NCBI GenBank assembly: GCA_019686135.1 | Contig: JADGHL010000048.1 | Location: 1 to 33,423 of the forward strand | Length of the DNA: 33,423 bases | Reading direction: 5' to 3' | Source: Myxococcaceae bacterium | GTDB taxonomy: Bacteria; Myxococcota; Myxococcia; Myxococcales; Myxococcaceae | Shown here: positions 1-33,332 of the stretch, piece by piece | How the letters are laid out: each line of letters opens with the position of its first letter | How positions within the stretch are numbered: the stretch's first letter is position 1 | Translations under genes and position numbers: made by a program | Notes under the pieces: generated by a model | What the model saw: the letters and a program-made list of their open reading frames with translations, nothing else | Told to the model about the DNA's origin: nothing | Databases searched by the model: none

Positions 1-29
1 TCGTCGGCAGCGTCAGATGTGTATAACAG
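1..29 (+). other. Nextera transposase adapter remnant (not genomic)
   Basis: Positions 1-14 match the Nextera read-1 tail and 15-26 match the first 12 bases of the 19-bp Tn5 mosaic end. The mosaic end's last bases (CAG) follow at 27-29, with the intervening GAGA missing. This is library adapter left on a contig end. Biological sequence begins at about position 30. Confidence 0.93.
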
Positions 30-43
30 CCCGCCCCCTCTAC

Positions 44-64
44 TCACGAGTCACGACTCACTGA
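44..64 (-). repeat. Heptamer tandem repeat, 3 units, overlapping the pcnB stop
   Basis: Read on the minus strand, the units are TCAGTGA, GTCGTGA and CTCGTGA, followed by a degenerate GTAGAGG at 43-37. The consensus is close to GTNGTGA. The array encodes the last six residues and the stop codon of pcnB. Related arrays lie at 15401-15428 and 18155-18182, also at gene ends. Confidence 0.6.
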
Positions 65-1741
65 TTTTCGGCGCCGGCGGCGGCGTTTGCGGCGGGGCCC
101 TTCGGCGTCGGGGGCCACGCTGGGCGCTCCTCCGGAGAGCCACGCGTCGAGTTGTTCGCGGAATTCGCCGGTGGCTTCCACCGAGATCGCGAACACCGTG
201 AGCGCTTCGTTGAAAAGCGGGTGCCGCCGGAAGGACGCCAGCGATCCACGGCGCCGCCTCTGCCCGGAGAGCGTCCGCTGGGCGATGAGGATCATCCGGC
301 ACCGCTCGGCGATCCGCCGCGGCAGCCGCGCGTTGCGGACGAGATCCGACAGGAGTTGTTCGATCGCCTCCGCCACCGAGGGCGGCTTGCCCTGCTCTTC
401 GGTGGCCGGCGCGTCGTTGGCGATCGGCAACAGGATCGCCGCGAGCAGCACCGCGTCCTCCAGCTGCTCGCCCTCGCGCACCCGCCGGTCGAGCGCGCGG
501 GTGTGGGCGAAGAAGCGCGCCTCCCCCTGCTCCCCGGTCCGCTGGAGGTACTCGTGCACGGGCGGAAGAAGGATCTTCAGCGCGTCCAGCGCGGCGATCA
601 GCTTGAGACTGTCGGTGGCGATCCCTCCGCGGATCAGCCGGAAGGTCTCCTCCAGGAGCCGCGCCGGGGCGCAGCGCGGCAGATCCTCCACGGCGCCCTC
701 CATCGCCGCATAGGTGCGGGACTCGAGCTCCAGGCCGCACTTGCAGGCGAACCGCACCGCCCGGAGGATCCGCACCGGGTCCTCCCGCATCCGGATCTCG
801 GGGTTGCCGATGGTGCGGATGTTCCGCTCCTCCAGATCGCGGCGGCCGCGGACGTAGTCGATCACCTTGCCGGCGAACGGGTCGTAGAACAGCCCGTTGA
901 TGGTGAAGTCGCGGCGGCGGGCGTCCTCCTCGGCGGTGCCGAAGACGTTGTCCATGGTGATGAGCAGGTCGCCTTCCTCGCCGTTGGCGTCGGCGCCGTT
1001 CTCATCCTCCGACTGACCCGCCAGCCCAGTGGGGTTGGCGCGGAAGGTGGAGACCTCGATGATCTTCCCGCCCTTGAAGTAGACGTGCGCCAGCCGGAAC
1101 CGCCGGCCGATCAACCGGCAGTTGCGGAAGACGTTCCGCACCTCGTTGGGCGTGGCGCTGGTGGCCACGTCGAAGTCCTTCGGCGTCCGGCCCAGCAACA
1201 GATCGCGGACGCAGCCGCCCACGAAGTACGCCTCGTGACCGAACTGCCGGAGCCGGTACACCACCTTGAGCGCGTCCGGATCGAGCTTGGCGGGATCGAT
1301 CTCCGCCTCCTCCGCCGGCGCCATCCGCAGCTGCAGGCCAGCACCGGCGCGCTCCTCGTCCCGGGCCTCCGGCGTGACCGCGGCGATCACCTCGGCCGCC
1401 TCGTCGTCGTCGTCCTCGTCCTCCACCACCGTCGCCTGGGCCAGCTCCTCTGCGCGGCGGCCCTCGTCCCCGAAGCGCGGCGGCGGCTCCGGGGAGTCGT
1501 CCCGGTACGCCATCAGCGCGTCCTCGGCGTCGTCCTTGAGCGAATCGTCCCGTCCCTCTGGTTCGGCTGGCGGCACCGCGGGGCGGGGGTCCTCAGGCCG
1601 GATCGCGCGGGCCGGGTCCTGCCCGGGCGCGGTTGCTTCACTCGTCATTTCCAGTCTGCCTTCGTTCGCGCGGTGCGCGGAGCCGGTCCACCCGCGATTC
1701 CGGGGGTGGCGGCTCTTCTTTGTGTCCTCTGGACTGCTCAT
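44..1741 (-). CDS. pcnB: Poly(A) polymerase / tRNA nucleotidyltransferase family protein (PcnB-type)
   Basis: Adds 3' nucleotides to RNA; PcnB-type enzymes polyadenylate transcripts and so promote decay. The class II nucleotidyltransferase signature is clear: GGCVRDLLLG at residues 175-184, then the metal-binding pair D189-F-D191, then an RNA-binding region with the typical RREDPVRILRAVRF-like stretch. The C-terminus is a run of Arg/Lys (RKRRRRRRKS), common in PcnB and presumably RNA-binding. Before the catalytic core is a disordered acidic/Pro-rich extension of about 150 residues. An alternative ATG at 1648 would shorten this by 31 residues; neither start has a strong ribosome site. A TATAGA -10-like hexamer lies at 1804-1809 (minus). 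The family also contains CCA-adding enzymes, but the basic tail favours PcnB. The last codons and stop come from a 7-bp repeat array. Confidence 0.88.
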   Translation of the reverse strand: MSSPEDTKKSRHPRNRGWTGSAHRANEGRLEMTSEATAPGQDPARAIRPEDPRPAVPPAEPEGRDDSLKDDAEDALMAYRDDSPEPPPRFGDEGRRAEELAQATVVEDEDDDDEAAEVIAAVTPEARDEERAGAGLQLRMAPAEEAEIDPAKLDPDALKVVYRLRQFGHEAYFVGGCVRDLLLGRTPKDFDVATSATPNEVRNVFRNCRLIGRRFRLAHVYFKGGKIIEVSTFRANPTGLAGQSEDENGADANGEEGDLLITMDNVFGTAEEDARRRDFTINGLFYDPFAGKVIDYVRGRRDLEERNIRTIGNPEIRMREDPVRILRAVRFACKCGLELESRTYAAMEGAVEDLPRCAPARLLEETFRLIRGGIATDSLKLIAALDALKILLPPVHEYLQRTGEQGEARFFAHTRALDRRVREGEQLEDAVLLAAILLPIANDAPATEEQGKPPSVAEAIEQLLSDLVRNARLPRRIAERCRMILIAQRTLSGQRRRRGSLASFRRHPLFNEALTVFAISVEATGEFREQLDAWLSGGAPSVAPDAEGPRRKRRRRRRKSVSRDS

Positions 1742-14872: not shown

Positions 14873-14922
14873 CGCCGGATTCTTTGGGAATGAACCGGAC
14901 CATGCGACGTTCGGGGGTGCGC

Positions 14923-15393
14923 ATGAACGCTCGAATCCTCGTCGTGGGAGTGGCCCTCTTGTCGCTCGCCGGGTGCGCCAAACGGTTCATCCCGGGCACG
15001 GAAATCGTCGACACGGACGACACGCGCGAGATCCTCGACGTCATCCAGAAGTTCCAGGCGTCGGTGGAGGCAAAGAACGCGGATGCGATCGTCCAGCTCG
15101 CTGCGCCGGACTTCAACGACGACGCGGGGACGCCGGACCTGGATGACGATCTGCGCTACGACAACCTGGGGGAGGCGCTCAAGGAACGCTTCTCGAAAAT
15201 CGACCACGTCCGGCTGGACATGGACGTGCGCCGAATCGACATCCAGGACGGGGGAGCGCTCGCGGTGTACTATTACACGCTGCGCTACGAAATGCCGAGC
15301 CTCTCCGACAAGCCGCAGACGGCCGCCGAACTCAAACGGATGGAACTGAAGAAAATCGACAAGCAAGGCTGGCGCATCGTCAGCGGCATCTGA
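14923..15393 (+). CDS. NTF2-like lipoprotein
   Basis: A 156-residue lipoprotein. The signal peptide (MNARILVVGVALLSLAGC) ends in a textbook lipobox LAGC with C18. The mature part has the NTF2/SnoaL-like layout: a helix of type REILDVIQKFQASVEAKNADAIVQLAAPDF, then strands ending in ALAVYYYTLRYE and WRIVSG. NTF2-like envelope lipoproteins usually have no known substrate. In-frame ATGs at 14890 and 14902 would add 11 or 7 residues in front of the signal peptide; 14923 is chosen because it leaves a normal-length signal. A heptamer repeat array begins eight bases after the stop. Confidence 0.75.
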   Translation: MNARILVVGVALLSLAGCAKRFIPGTEIVDTDDTREILDVIQKFQASVEAKNADAIVQLAAPDFNDDAGTPDLDDDLRYDNLGEALKERFSKIDHVRLDMDVRRIDIQDGGALAVYYYTLRYEMPSLSDKPQTAAELKRMELKKIDKQGWRIVSGI

Positions 15394-15400
15394 CGCGTTC

Positions 15401-15428
15401 GTAGTGAGAAGTGAGTCGTGGGTAGTTT
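15401..15428 (+). repeat. Heptamer tandem repeat downstream of the NTF2-like gene
   Basis: Units are GTAGTGA, GAAGTGA, GTCGTGG and a degraded GTAGTTT, all in 7-bp register. The array starts eight bases after the lipoprotein stop and lies between convergent genes. It shares its consensus with the arrays at 44-64 and 18155-18182. Confidence 0.6.
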
Positions 15429-15460
15429 GGCGCGCTTTGCCGCTTCTCGGCGCGCTGGCG

Positions 15461-16565: not shown

Positions 16566-18158
16566 ATGGCAGTCGCCGAGACTCCGAACAACAACTCCGA
16601 CTGGAAAAAGCGTGAGAGCTTGGGCAGCGCGCTCTTGCAGATCGTGGTGGTGGGCGTGGTCCTCGCCGTCGCGGTCTACTTCTTCTACGCGCGCACCACG
16701 CGACGGAAGGAGATCGCCGACAAGCTGAAGGAGGCCAGGACCGTCGCACTGCGCGGCAACCCCGGCGACCTCGCCAAAGCGACGAAGCAGCTCGAGGAGA
16801 TTTTCGCGCTCGACTCGTCGGCGAAGGACGCGCTCGCGTTCGCCGCCAGCATCGAGACCGACCGGTGGCTCGTTCACGGGGTTTCGGGCGCGGAACAGAA
16901 GGCGAAGGACTACCTGGCCCGCGCGGAGTCCGAGGACTCGCGCACCGAGGACCGCTTCGGCACGAAGGTCCTGCACATGATCGCCGCGGGCAAGGCGAAG
17001 GAGGCCGCCGAGTACGCGGAGGATCTCCGCAAGAAGGGCGCCTCCTCCGCGAAGCTCTGGTACGGGATCGCCATGGCCTACGAGCGCCAGGGGAATGTCG
17101 CCCTGGCCCGGCCCGCGTTCCAGCAGGCCATCGAGAAGGCGTGGAAGAACCCCGCCTACTACGCCGGGTACGGTGAGGCGCTCCTGGATCAGGCCGAGTA
17201 CCGGATGGCGGTCGACATCCTCTCCAAGGGGCTCAACAACAACCCGGATCACCTCCTCAGCCGGATCGACCTCGCGCTCGCGCGGATCTACCGCGAGGAC
17301 CGGGTGAAGGACGCCGCGGACTCGCTCAAGGAGATCCTCGCGGCGACGGATGAGCTGACGCCGGGCCTCAAGGCGCGCGCGCTCGCGGCCAACGCCGAGC
17401 TCGCCAACTTCGAGCACCGCTTCGACGACGCCCTCAAGGCGGCCGACGAGGCGCTCGCCGTCAACCCGAACGAGCGCTACGCCCTCTTCGCCCGTGCGCG
17501 TGCGCTGGCCATGAAGAAGGACCCGGGCGCACTCGACGCGTTCAAGAAGGCGATCGCTCAGGACCCGATGGCCCCCGGCCCGTACATCACCGGCGCGAAG
17601 CTGCTGGCAGATGCCGGCAACTTCGACGGGGCGATCGCGCTGCTCGACGACTACGAGAAGGCCTACGCCAACGTCACCGTCACCCAGGCGGACGGGTCGG
17701 AGAAGAAGGCGCTCGATCGCGACGACCGTTACTGGGTCGCGCGCGGCGACACGCTGCGCGCGGCGGGCAAGCTGGACGACGCGATGGCCGCCTACGACAA
17801 GGCCATCGCCGTGGACAGCGTCAACCGCACCCGCGCGCACTACGCCAAGGGCGCGCTGCTCCTGGAGAAGAAGGACTACGACAAGGCGCTCGAGGAGCTG
17901 GACCTGGTCACGCCGGACGACGGCACTGGGCAGATCGCCGAAGCCTACGCCGCCAAGGGCCAGGTCCTCTTCGCCAAGAAGGACTTCGTCAACGGCTGCC
18001 AGAACTTCGCCTTCGCCCTCACCCGCATGAAGGCGCAACAGGTGGCCCGCGAGAAGATGAACGCGCTGCTCGAGTCCGTCTCGAAGGACCTCGTCGCCAA
18101 TGGCCAGCGCGCCATGGCCAAAGCGTGGGAGACGGAAGCCAAGCCACTCATCCAGTAG
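16566..18158 (+). CDS. Membrane-anchored TPR protein
   Basis: A 530-residue protein with a short charged N-terminus, one membrane helix (about residues 22-43, LLQIVVVGVVLAVAVYFFYA) and then TPR units to the end. Clear units include LWYGIAMAYERQGNVALARPAFQQA, YYAGYGEALLDQAEYRMAVDILSKG and YWVARGDTLRAAGKLDDAMAAYDKA. Several units carry the TPR Gly/Ala/Pro signature positions. Such a protein is likely a scaffold, with the TPR part in the periplasm if the charge rule holds; partners are unknown. It has its own sigma-70-like promoter (16484-16513), AGAGG nine bases before the ATG, and a strong intrinsic terminator after it, so it is a self-contained transcription unit. The stop codon lies inside a heptamer repeat. 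Confidence 0.83.
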   Translation: MAVAETPNNNSDWKKRESLGSALLQIVVVGVVLAVAVYFFYARTTRRKEIADKLKEARTVALRGNPGDLAKATKQLEEIFALDSSAKDALAFAASIETDRWLVHGVSGAEQKAKDYLARAESEDSRTEDRFGTKVLHMIAAGKAKEAAEYAEDLRKKGASSAKLWYGIAMAYERQGNVALARPAFQQAIEKAWKNPAYYAGYGEALLDQAEYRMAVDILSKGLNNNPDHLLSRIDLALARIYREDRVKDAADSLKEILAATDELTPGLKARALAANAELANFEHRFDDALKAADEALAVNPNERYALFARARALAMKKDPGALDAFKKAIAQDPMAPGPYITGAKLLADAGNFDGAIALLDDYEKAYANVTVTQADGSEKKALDRDDRYWVARGDTLRAAGKLDDAMAAYDKAIAVDSVNRTRAHYAKGALLLEKKDYDKALEELDLVTPDDGTGQIAEAYAAKGQVLFAKKDFVNGCQNFAFALTRMKAQQVAREKMNALLESVSKDLVANGQRAMAKAWETEAKPLIQ

Positions 18159-18182
18159 TGAGTGGTAGGTGGTGAGAAGTGA
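18155..18182 (+). repeat. Heptamer tandem repeat containing the TPR gene stop codon
   Basis: Four 7-bp units: GTAGTGA, GTGGTAG, GTGGTGA and GAAGTGA. The TAG stop of the TPR gene (18156-18158) is inside the first unit. The array is followed directly by the terminator hairpin. The unit type is the same as at 44-64 and 15401-15428. Confidence 0.65.
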
Positions 18183-18188
18183 GTGAGG

Positions 18189-18225
18189 CGCCCCGCACGG
18201 CTTTGCCGGCGGGGCGTTCGCTTTT
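18189..18225 (+). terminator. Intrinsic terminator of the TPR gene
   Basis: An 8-bp stem CGCCCCGC / GCGGGGCG (18189-18196 with 18209-18216) is extended, past a bulged A, by CGGC / GCCG (18198-18201 with 18205-18208) closing a TTT loop. The run TTCGCTTTTT (18217-18226) follows. This is a classic Rho-independent terminator for the plus strand. On the minus strand no T-run follows the hairpin. Confidence 0.85.
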
Positions 18226-28669: not shown

Positions 28670-30571
28670 ATGTGTCGTCGCCCAGGCATCGCGCTGTTGC
28701 TGCTGGCGGCCGTGACCGTCGTCATGGCCTGTTCCTCCCCTCCTCCCCATGAGGAACCGAAGGGCCCGGAAATCTGCGACAACAACCGGGACGACAACGG
28801 CGACGACAAGATCGACTGCGCAGATCCGCTTTGCTTCCGCGAAGCGGTGTGCGGGATGGGCGGCGGCGAGGACTGCGCCAACGGCTCCGACGACGACGGC
28901 GATCTCGCCGCGGACTGCGACGATCCGGACTGCGCCGCGTTCCCAGCCTGCCAGTCGGACGCCCGGGAGGACTGCACCGGCGGCCAAGACGAGGACGCGG
29001 ACGGCAAGCTGGACTGCCTCGACCCGGACTGCGTGAGCGATCCCGCCTGCAAGCCGAAGGAGATCTGCAACAACAACCTCGAGGACAACGGCGACGTCTT
29101 CATCGACTGCCAGGACCCGACCTGCGCGGGCACCGCCTTCTGCCCCAGCGCGGAGGTAGGCGCCTGCTCCGACGGGCAGGACAACGATCTGGACGGCGCA
29201 GTGGACTGCCAGGACGCGGACTGCCTCGCCGACTGTCCGGGCGGCGAGAACACCGACGAGCTGTGCTCGAACGGGCAGGATGATGACGGGGACTTCCTCG
29301 TCGACTGCAACGATGGCTCCTGCAAGCTGGCGCAGACCTGCAAGAATCCCCCGGAGTCCCTCTGCCTCGATGGGCAGGACAACGACGGCGACGGGAAGAC
29401 CGACTGCCTCGACCCGGACTGCGTGCTCTCGCCCAACTGCCAGACCTCCGCGGAGAACTGCGCCAACGGCGCCGACGACGACGGCGACACCCTGAGCGAC
29501 TGCGCCGATCAGGACTGCGACGGGCAGGTCTGCGGAGCCGGCTGCGTGTGCGGCGCAGGCGTGAAGACGGAGGCGCTCTGCGGCGACGGCCTGGACAACG
29601 ACGCCGACGGCGCGAAGGACTGCATGGACTCCGACTGCGCCGCCGCGTCGGGTTGCCAGAAGACCTCGGAATCCGACTGCGTCAACGGTGCGGACGACGA
29701 CGGCGACGGCGCCACCGACTGCGCCGACCCCGACTGCGTCGACCAGTCCTGCGGCGCCGGCTGCACCTGCGGCCCCTCGGCGAAGCGGGAGACGGCCTGC
29801 AACGACACCAGCGACAACGACGGCGACGGCGCAACCGACTGCGCCGACCCGGACTGCGGTGGGACGACCTCCTGCCCGGCGGTCGACGACGGCCAGCCGT
29901 GCACCTCGGACTCCCAGTGCAAAGGCGCCCGCTGCCTCACGGAGATCGGCTCGGGCTTCCCCGGCGGCTTCTGCACGAACGCGTCGCCGTGCACGGTAGG
30001 CACCACCAACGGCTGCCACGGCGGAACCTGCTACCAGGTTGGCTCGGAGACGCGCTGCTACATCCCCTGCTCCGGCCAGAGCGGCTGCCGGCCCGGCTAC
30101 GCCTGCTTCGATCCCGACGGGAACGCGGCCACGCAGAACAGCGTCTGCGAGACGCTCTGCACGTCGGACTCCGAGTGCACCGCCACCGGGCAGACCAACT
30201 GGGGCTGCAACCCCTGGAGCAAGTACTGCGAGAACAAGAACAAGGGCCTGAAGAAGTACGGCGAGCCCTGTACCCAGTCCTCCGAGTGCGAGTCCGACTG
30301 GTGCTACACCGGTCTCGCCGGCGGCTACTGCCTCGGGATCTGCAACCTGCAGGCGGGCACCTGCGGAGGCGACGGGGTGTGCCTGGACGACATCAATCCC
30401 CCAACAGACAACGTGGGCAACTGCTGGGACGGCTGCACCAGTGACGCCGATTGTCGCAGCCAGTACTTCTGCGACGCGGCGAATACCTGCTACTGCGGGC
30501 TGCCCGGCGACATCTGCATCAGCGGAGACGACTGTTGTTCCGGCTCGTGCTTCCTCTTCAGCTGCGATTGA
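28670..30571 (+). CDS. Cys-rich lipoprotein with 11 acidic Ca-loop-like repeats
   Basis: A 633-residue lipoprotein. The signal peptide ends VVMAC, with C21 as the lipidated residue. Residues 34-396 hold 11 copies of a motif of about 22 residues, pattern C-x-N/D-G-x-D-D/N-D-G-D-G-x-x-D-C-x-D-P-D-C. Each has a DxDxDG calcium-loop-like core and three cysteines. The layout recalls thrombospondin type-3 and MopE-type metal-binding repeats. Residues 400-633 form a different Cys-rich region (for example CTSDSQCKGARC, CTSDSECTATG), ending YCGLPGDICISGDDCCSGSCFLFSCD, knot-like. It is probably surface-displayed and stabilised by calcium and disulfides; the role is unknown. GGAG lies seven bases before the ATG. 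The sigma-54 regulator gene follows after 42 bases. Confidence 0.83.
   Translation: MCRRPGIALLLLAAVTVVMACSSPPPHEEPKGPEICDNNRDDNGDDKIDCADPLCFREAVCGMGGGEDCANGSDDDGDLAADCDDPDCAAFPACQSDAREDCTGGQDEDADGKLDCLDPDCVSDPACKPKEICNNNLEDNGDVFIDCQDPTCAGTAFCPSAEVGACSDGQDNDLDGAVDCQDADCLADCPGGENTDELCSNGQDDDGDFLVDCNDGSCKLAQTCKNPPESLCLDGQDNDGDGKTDCLDPDCVLSPNCQTSAENCANGADDDGDTLSDCADQDCDGQVCGAGCVCGAGVKTEALCGDGLDNDADGAKDCMDSDCAAASGCQKTSESDCVNGADDDGDGATDCADPDCVDQSCGAGCTCGPSAKRETACNDTSDNDGDGATDCADPDCGGTTSCPAVDDGQPCTSDSQCKGARCLTEIGSGFPGGFCTNASPCTVGTTNGCHGGTCYQVGSETRCYIPCSGQSGCRPGYACFDPDGNAATQNSVCETLCTSDSECTATGQTNWGCNPWSKYCENKNKGLKKYGEPCTQSSECESDWCYTGLAGGYCLGICNLQAGTCGGDGVCLDDINPPTDNVGNCWDGCTSDADCRSQYFCDAANTCYCGLPGDICISGDDCCSGSCFLFSCD
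28769..29857 (+). repeat. Eleven diverged DxDxDG/Cys coding repeats
   Basis: Unequal spacing (about 22-residue motif plus variable linkers of 8-16 residues) and diverged DNA show this is an old coding repeat, unlike the young 27-bp array at the right end. Copies 8-11 are the most alike (NGADDDGD, DCADPDC). Confidence 0.8.
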
Positions 30572-32042: not shown

Positions 32043-33098
32043 ATGAAGAAGATACTTTTTGGAGTGATGCTGGGGCTGGTGGGCCTCCCCTTGCTTGCGG
32101 CCGCGGCGCTCTGGGTGGCCGGGATGCGCAGCAACGCCGGGCACACCGGCGGGTCGATCGTGATCCACCGTCCGGCGGTCGAGATCTGGCCGTACTTCAC
32201 CGAGATCGAGAAGCTCAAGCGCTGGCAGAGCGGGATTCAAGAGATCACCCCCCTCAGCGGCTCGGGCGTGGCAGTGGGTACGAAGTCGCGCGTCGTCGCC
32301 AGCGCGGGCCCGGACGAACACCCGTTCCCGATGGAGCACGTCTACACCGCGGTCGAACCGCCGAAGCGGCTCGCGTACACGCTGAGCGCCGACGAACAGG
32401 GCATGGGGTTCGTGAGCAGGTTTCAGGTGCGCCTCGACGAGAAGGACGGCGCCACCACCGTGACCATGCTCTCGGACACCGAGTACCGGGGGCCGATCCC
32501 GCGGCTCTTCGAGCCGTTGCTTACCGCCTCCGCGCAGTCGAAGGGCGCCAGCGATCTGCGCGCGCTCAAGGAGTTGGTTGAAGGCACACCGCGCGCTGAG
32601 CCGCCGCCGTCGGCCGGTCCCCGGGACGAAGCGCGCCCGGCGCCCGAAGCCTCCGCCGCTTCCCGCGAAGCCGCGGACGAATCCGAGTCGCACGATTCAA
32701 ACGAAGTCGCCCCGGCGAACGCAGAGGCCGCCGCTCCCATGCCGGAGACGAACACAACCACCGAGACTCCGCATTCGGGCGAGGCACGCGCAGCACAGGA
32801 CCCGAGCGGGCCCCACACGGCACAAGCCCCGAGCGAGACGCGCACGGCACTGGACTCGGGCGAGGCGCACGCGGCACAGGACTCGGGCGAGGCGCACGCA
32901 GCACACGACTCGAGCGAGGCGCACGCGGCACAGGACTCGGGCGAGGCGCACGCGGCACAGGACTCGGGCGAGGCGCACGCGACACACGACTCGAGCGAGG
33001 CGCCCACAGCACGCGACTCGAGCGAGGCGCACGCAGCACACGACTCGAGCGAAACGCACGCAGCAGAAGACTCGGGCGAGACGCAGGCAGCTCCGTAG
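32043..33098 (+). CDS. Membrane-anchored SRPBCC protein with 9-residue C-terminal repeats, probably truncated
   Basis: A 351-residue protein: membrane segment or signal (residues 4-26), SRPBCC/polyketide-cyclase-like domain (about 38-180; SIVIHRPAVEIWPYFTEIEKLKRWQ and FVSRFQVRLDEKDGATTVTM), a Pro/Ala/Glu linker, then from residue 242 tandem 9-residue repeats with consensus AQDSGEAHA. The reading frame stops at TAG 33096-33098 inside the repeat array. The array continues in the same frame to a further TAG at 33330-33332, which also ends it, and a second internal TAG lies at 33150-33152. The ancestral or intended product is probably 32043-33332 (429 codons), cut short by a duplicated 54-bp block. 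Ligand unknown. It follows the sigma-54 regulator by 19 bases. Confidence 0.72.
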   Translation: MKKILFGVMLGLVGLPLLAAAALWVAGMRSNAGHTGGSIVIHRPAVEIWPYFTEIEKLKRWQSGIQEITPLSGSGVAVGTKSRVVASAGPDEHPFPMEHVYTAVEPPKRLAYTLSADEQGMGFVSRFQVRLDEKDGATTVTMLSDTEYRGPIPRLFEPLLTASAQSKGASDLRALKELVEGTPRAEPPPSAGPRDEARPAPEASAASREAADESESHDSNEVAPANAEAAAPMPETNTTTETPHSGEARAAQDPSGPHTAQAPSETRTALDSGEAHAAQDSGEAHAAHDSSEAHAAQDSGEAHAAQDSGEAHATHDSSEAPTARDSSEAHAAHDSSETHAAEDSGETQAAP

Positions 33099-33332
33099 TC
33101 GAGCGAAACGCACGCAGCAGAAGACTCGGGCGAGACGCAGGCAGCTCCGTAGTCGAGCGAGACGCACGCCGCACACGACTCGGGCGAGACGCACGCTGCA
33201 CAGGACTCGGGCGAGACGCACGCGGCACAGGACTCGGGCGAGACGCACGCGGCACAGGACTCGGGCGAGACGCACGCGGCACAGGACTCGGGCGAGACGC
33301 ACGCGGCACAGGACTCGGGCGAGACGCAGTAG
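32766..33332 (+). repeat. 27-bp tandem repeat array, 21 units
   Basis: 567 bp, exactly 21 units of 27 bp, coding for 9-residue units in the SRPBCC frame. The first three units are diverged and the last five nearly identical, implying recent expansion at the right side. A 54-bp block (33045-33098) is duplicated exactly at 33099-33152, and each copy ends in TAG. No spacers separate the units, so it is not a CRISPR array. Confidence 0.92.

Follow-up and report, generated by a model that had tools for sequence, protein, structure and literature searches.

Three short arrays of a 7-bp unit, each lying at the 3′ end of a gene, occur in the 33,423 nucleotides of Myxococcaceae DNA analysed here (the window), and they raise the question of whether such arrays are a slippage-prone repeat or copies of an element that acts where transcripts end. 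All three were found in the window sequence in the orientation given by the initial annotation and with the three or four units it had counted (3, 4, and 4 in the best register); the register in which it had read them, GTNGTGA, fits the arrays less well than GTGAGNN. Array 1 (GTGAGTC GTGACTC GTGAGTA; minus strand, 41–61) comprises three heptads, matched in the best-fitting register, the third of which contains the stop codon TGA of a poly(A)-polymerase-like gene with a poly(A) polymerase head domain (ORF 44–1576, minus strand). Array 2 (GTTCGTA GTGAGAA GTGAGTC GTGGGTA; plus strand, 15397–15424) has four heptads, lies 4 nt after the stop TGA (15391–15393) of a short plus-strand ORF with a weak DUF4440 match (14890–15393), and is covered by a covariance model, R1, at 15380–15459 (23.5 bits). 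Array 3 (GTGAGTG GTAGGTG GTGAGAA GTGAGTG; plus strand, 18158–18185), again of four heptads and with an R1 match at 18138–18216 (21.2 bits), begins on the last base of the stop TAG (18156–18158) of a gene for a protein with TPR repeats (16566–18158, plus strand). Each array thus points away from a gene whose stop codon it overlaps or stands close behind, as had been described. Arrays 2 and 3 are flanked by convergent gene pairs according to our own gene calls. Directly behind array 3, a strong terminator-like hairpin is followed by a T-rich tail (18183–18221, plus strand; −31.5 kcal/mol, z = −4.9) and was also picked up in a terminator scan; behind array 2, folding shows no hairpin above chance (z = 0.2), and an Rfam scan covering the window only gave no match at gathering score. 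At the contig start, a near-complete Nextera/Tn5 adapter (window 1–33, 3 mismatches in 33 bases) makes the first ~30 bases non-genomic and, being untrimmed, leaves the genomic sequence past array 1 unreadable on that side.

The three arrays alone would not have proved that a family exists, since a two-unit scan of the window allowing 2 mismatches gave 29 hits against 42 expected, which is not above chance. The initial annotation had nevertheless proposed a genome-wide family, and this proposal is borne out by the 5,504,528-base draft genome to which the contig belongs (69 % G+C, 97 % complete). Here, exact matches to GTGAGNNGTGAG number 96 as compared to 3 for the reversed pattern, and three-unit patterns are found 12 and 18 times versus 0 for either control. 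In ~1 Mb around the seed hits, pairs of GTGAG are strongly spaced in steps of seven (95 at a gap of 2, 37 at a gap of 9, and 28 at a gap of 16, with at most 9 at any other gap up to 23). A motif profile built from the GTGAGNNGTGAG matches and run over 1.28 Mb detected 92 copies scoring at least 20 bits, while order-2 shuffles yielded none even at 12 bits. Stretches chosen blind to arrays contained 6 copies of at least 14 bits in ~410 kb, which suggests by extrapolation a total of ~130–170 copies in the genome. With the covariance model and the pattern, none of 194 other genomes of the phylum gave a convincing copy (there were a few weak matches), and a scan of named genomes returned 7 isolated matches in unrelated taxa.

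Aligned with each other, the copies resolve into a motif of fixed size, ~29 bp, built from four heptads that read GTTCGTV, GTGRSKG, GTGAGTN, and GTGAGTA, followed by a G. Of the 92 arrays, 51 have four units and 29 have five, which together makes 80. When the copies are aligned on the last exact pair, the information spans the four heptads and has a sharp left edge (on the right, the edge depends in part on the alignment anchor), and within the family the motif is conserved at 0.86 versus 0.71 in its flanks. The heptads moreover differ by rank: rank 1 is mostly GTTCGTV, rank 2 GTGGCTG, GTGACTG, or GTGACGG, rank 3 GTGAGTG/C or GTGAGGA, and rank 4 GTGAGTA/C/G. Constant across the ranks are G at position 1, T at position 2, and G or C at position 5, with T at position 6 kept less strictly. 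The initial annotation missed this order and also that the motif forms the middle of a longer, structured element whose hairpin covaries.

The enrichment at stop codons seen in the window holds genome-wide, as judged with gene calls from a simple codon-model caller written for this analysis instead of a standard annotation. Of 90 copies, 72 share the strand of their upstream neighbour and 18 are antisense to it, and between co-directional genes 35 copies are sense versus 12 antisense. Convergent gaps hold 31 copies and divergent gaps 3, with 1 copy inside coding sequence in 1.13 Mb; expressed as density per kb, this amounts to 1.71 in convergent gaps, 0.48 for sense and 0.16 for antisense copies in co-directional gaps, 0.08 in divergent gaps, and 0.0009 in coding sequence, that is, a ~20-fold difference between convergent and divergent gaps. 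Stop and motif are separated by a median of 3 nt, as compared to 33 nt for random placement in the same gaps, which never fell below 6 in 2000 trials. The same placement is preferred by copies without the exact seed (17 of the 22 that score at least 14 bits). Neighbouring copies form nine tail-to-tail pairs and no head-to-head pair. A stop in register with the array is unavoidable in overlapping copies, and where the stop lies before the motif the tendency is weak (p = 0.10); the register was accordingly given no weight. The idea that the motif marks highly expressed genes was discarded, as coding score, GC3, and length of the genes differ little from those of other genes at unit ends.

The initial annotation had considered a slippage-prone element spreading at gene ends, and the usual reading of such heptamer repeats in other bacteria points the same way (PMC4692102, PMC4679880), namely Mrazek's proposal as it is described in these two papers: a microsatellite that polymerase slippage generates and regenerates and that is tolerated only outside genes. 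Tandem units with a period of 7 are in line with this. However, two units of the same array resemble each other no more than two units taken from different arrays do (z of about −3 to 0): compared by pair of ranks, z is ~0 except between ranks 1 and 4 (z = 2.0), and slightly negative overall. The test has power, since two positive controls gave z = 30 (GTGAGNN arrays on contigs of a viral collection) and z = 7 (heptads in another genome of the same order). As similar heptads elsewhere are so strongly homogenised, and as the units here are ordered by rank and nearly constant in number (4 to 5), slippage is refuted as the origin of the four-heptad family and we consider it practically untenable. 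Scarcely more credible is a fail-safe for translation, in which three TGA-containing units would close all three reading frames because 7 leaves a remainder of 1 on division by three. Indeed, 63 of the 92 motifs close all frames versus 2 % of shuffles, and an in-frame stop follows within 10 codons in 80 % of the genes with a motif versus 11 % of other unit-end genes. Yet three-frame closure, at 68 %, is not above the 65 % of a column-shuffled null, so that the stops come with the consensus as a side effect. Only 24 % of rank-1 and 48 % of rank-2 units retain TGA, as compared to at least 90 % that retain GT, and the conserved letters are accordingly not the stops.

In about 22 copies, the motif is part of an 87-nt element with a hairpin at its end (covariance model, 22 copies at E <1e−6), and a 95-base consensus has ~28 matches in the genome. 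The full element runs GGCTTCGAGG-GCAGTGCCGGC..GCGTG, the four heptads, a 4-nt spacer, and a hairpin of the form N4-TCC-N4..6-loop-N4..6-TCC-N4, in which the TCC/TCC internal loop is invariant and the stems around it covary. The exact hairpin with this internal loop is found in 13 copies versus ~0.03 expected; elsewhere, eight matches in 3.1 Mb of strand are chance-like. Among 15 aligned copies, nine pairs are paired in 99 % of cases, a percentage that is inflated because 12 of the 15 had also been found by the hairpin descriptor; in the same copies, 28 cells have changed on both sides of the stem as compared to 8.5 after shuffling and at most 6 with the partner slid. The stems differ by genuine sequence differences (AGCG/CGCT, ATCC/GGAT, ATGC/GCAT, and ACCC/GGGT). 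Of the 22 full-length copies, 17 lie in sense orientation behind a gene, often 13 nt away from its stop codon. Seven copies have the element beginning at this distance past the stop, and TGA-GGCTTCGA recurs as its edge. The covarying hairpin is missing from the majority of short copies. More generally, a perfect stem of at least 7 bp stands behind 20 % of motif copies after genes versus 3–5 % of other unit ends, hairpin energies behind motif copies are lower than at other unit ends, and a T-tail is present in a minority of copies. In one case (L217, 6254–6354), array and hairpin occur twice in tandem, 71 bp apart, behind a single gene at a contig end. Poly-G-rich sequence stands directly behind some arrays on other contigs (L179, L219, and L221) and is probably an artefact of sequencing or assembly downstream of strong hairpins.

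An ordered, stop-proximal motif followed by a hairpin whose two sides have changed together looks like a transcript-end element rather than a microsatellite made by slippage, and the sense placement behind stops, the absence from promoters and genes, the hairpins, and their covariation jointly suggest a part that works in the 3′ region of the mRNA. The reading that we prefer, which follows the transcript-end role already suggested in the initial annotation and to which we give about an even chance of being right, is that the arrays are copies of a lineage-specific 3′-UTR element, an RNA-level module for transcript ends that would have spread by copying. In such an RNA, the element would begin at or just after the stop codon with four heptads that form an unpaired, GU-rich stretch (rank-specific, skeleton GUNNGUN), followed in many copies within 0–10 nt by the hairpin, the UCC/UCC internal loop of which is conserved in ~20 full-length copies. 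The hairpin may stop RNA polymerase or block 3′-to-5′ decay, and the four heptads could offer a landing site of fixed size to a pausing polymerase or an RNA-binding protein. Copies might have spread within the genome by being duplicated from one gene end to another or by conversion between them. Counting against this reading are the many short copies that have no covarying hairpin, array 2 with no hairpin above chance, the presence of a T-tail in a minority only, and the 18 antisense copies among 90. The main competitor, which is possible but clearly less probable, is a small dispersed repeat (REP- or MITE-like and non-autonomous) that lands or persists at the 3′ ends of genes, where it does least harm, and has no function for the host. 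The 22 full-length copies, confined by the covariance model to this one genome among 195 of the phylum, would suit such a repeat, as would the two-level structure of a short motif within a longer element and the GT(A/G)G head and imperfect palindrome that REPs likewise have, given that many motifs end in GTAG. However, tolerance at harmless sites would by itself predict neither the sense bias nor the offset from the stop, the family alignment shows no terminal inverted repeats, and a search for the Y1/RAYT transposase (PF01797), which gave matches in control genomes, found none in this 97 % complete genome; mobility as a REP driven by a RAYT was rejected on this ground. Alternatively, the arrays could be binding sites for a protein at the DNA level, placed between transcription units as a transcription roadblock or a nucleoid or replication signal. 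The fixed size with spaced contacts, the concentration in convergent gaps, and the nine tail-to-tail pairs with no head-to-head pair are all compatible with this, but a DNA site does not require a sense bias toward the upstream gene between co-directional genes, and the covarying hairpins suggest a single-stranded form, so that we regard it as unlikely. For the preferred transcript-end reading, the covarying hairpin offers a concrete object for testing, present in ~22 full-length copies alongside well over 100 short copies in a single genome.

The architecture of the family closely matches that of known heptamer repeats, and the likeness that had been suspected from the window is supported by published families with the same layout in Xanthomonas and Nostoc. 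Rehm et al. (2015, PMC4692102) described repeats of GGGAATC and GGGGA(C/T)T in these bacteria that prefer four units, are mostly intergenic and sense, lie less than 50 bp after stops or overlap them, are rare in coding sequence and divergent gaps, and form many facing pairs; the number four was tied to G-quadruplexes, and no function was found. Shared with the family described here are the period of 7 in tandem units far above chance, the preference for four units, the sense placement within 50 bp of the stop, the rarity in coding and divergent sequence, the facing pairs, and the skeleton G-N-G-A-N-T-N. In contrast, the present family has neither a G3 tract nor long perfect arrays, its units are degenerate, rank-specific, not homogenised by slippage, and nearly fixed in number, it has the stronger sense bias, and in a subset of copies the array is followed by a covarying hairpin. 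It also lacks G-quadruplex potential, as four tracts of three or more G (three tetrads) occur in 0 of the 92 motifs. Heptamers at bacterial gene ends have so far been put down to polymerase slippage or, in the case of four G-rich units, to G-quadruplexes; a family that keeps the four-unit size and the stop-proximal sense placement with neither implies that these explanations cannot be general, and neither accounts for the number four here. Speculatively, and with little confidence, four-heptad arrays of this skeleton behind stops in unrelated bacteria (GTGAGTN here, GGGANTN in Xanthomonas and Nostoc) may represent one convergent or shared class of mRNA 3′-end site, recognised by a protein able to count four modules of 7 nt. 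Arrays of other GNGANTN heptads (GGGAGTT, GAGAGTC, GGGATTT, GCGAGTG, and GCGAATA) were also seen in genomes of the same phylum: G037 (L318–L330), where they are homogenised and lack a sense bias, G065 (L331–L333), G038 (L334), and G165 (L335–L354), the last being excluded from the classification of arrays on account of its poor gene table.

Other known systems resemble the family in part. The TAACTGA repeats of Beggiatoaceae, cyanobacteria, and Bacteroidetes (MacGregor 2015, PMC4679880) are likewise short intergenic heptamer arrays of sporadic distribution for which an RNA-binding role has been proposed; however, they consist of identical units and lie mostly just upstream of start codons, whereas the four-heptad family is ordered and stands behind stops. 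REP elements and BIMEs with RAYT (Nunvar et al. 2010, PMC2817692) share the many extragenic copies, the hairpin with a mismatched loop, the inverted pairs, and a GT(A/G)G-like sequence before the hairpin, in that GTAG stands ~4 nt before it in several full-length copies; a four-heptad array is, however, no part of REPs, and most motif copies here lack that hairpin. With intrinsic (Rho-independent) terminators, the family has in common the strong hairpin behind many arrays and, in some, a T-tail such as that behind array 3, but the array itself is no terminator part and the full-length hairpins have no T-tract. On four IMG/VR contigs (L028, L049, L066, and L117), GTGAGCA arrays lie near or overlap several gene stops, apparently as an independent family of similar layout. 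Two further repeats were noted in the window. A tandem near-duplicate of 219 bp (29457–29858) lies inside ORF 28724–30571, the protein of which has no Pfam match, and a minisatellite with a 27-bp unit (32775–33328, ~20 copies, 84 % matching) overlaps the end of ORF 32067–33098, the first part of which matches a polyketide-cyclase/AHSA1-like domain.
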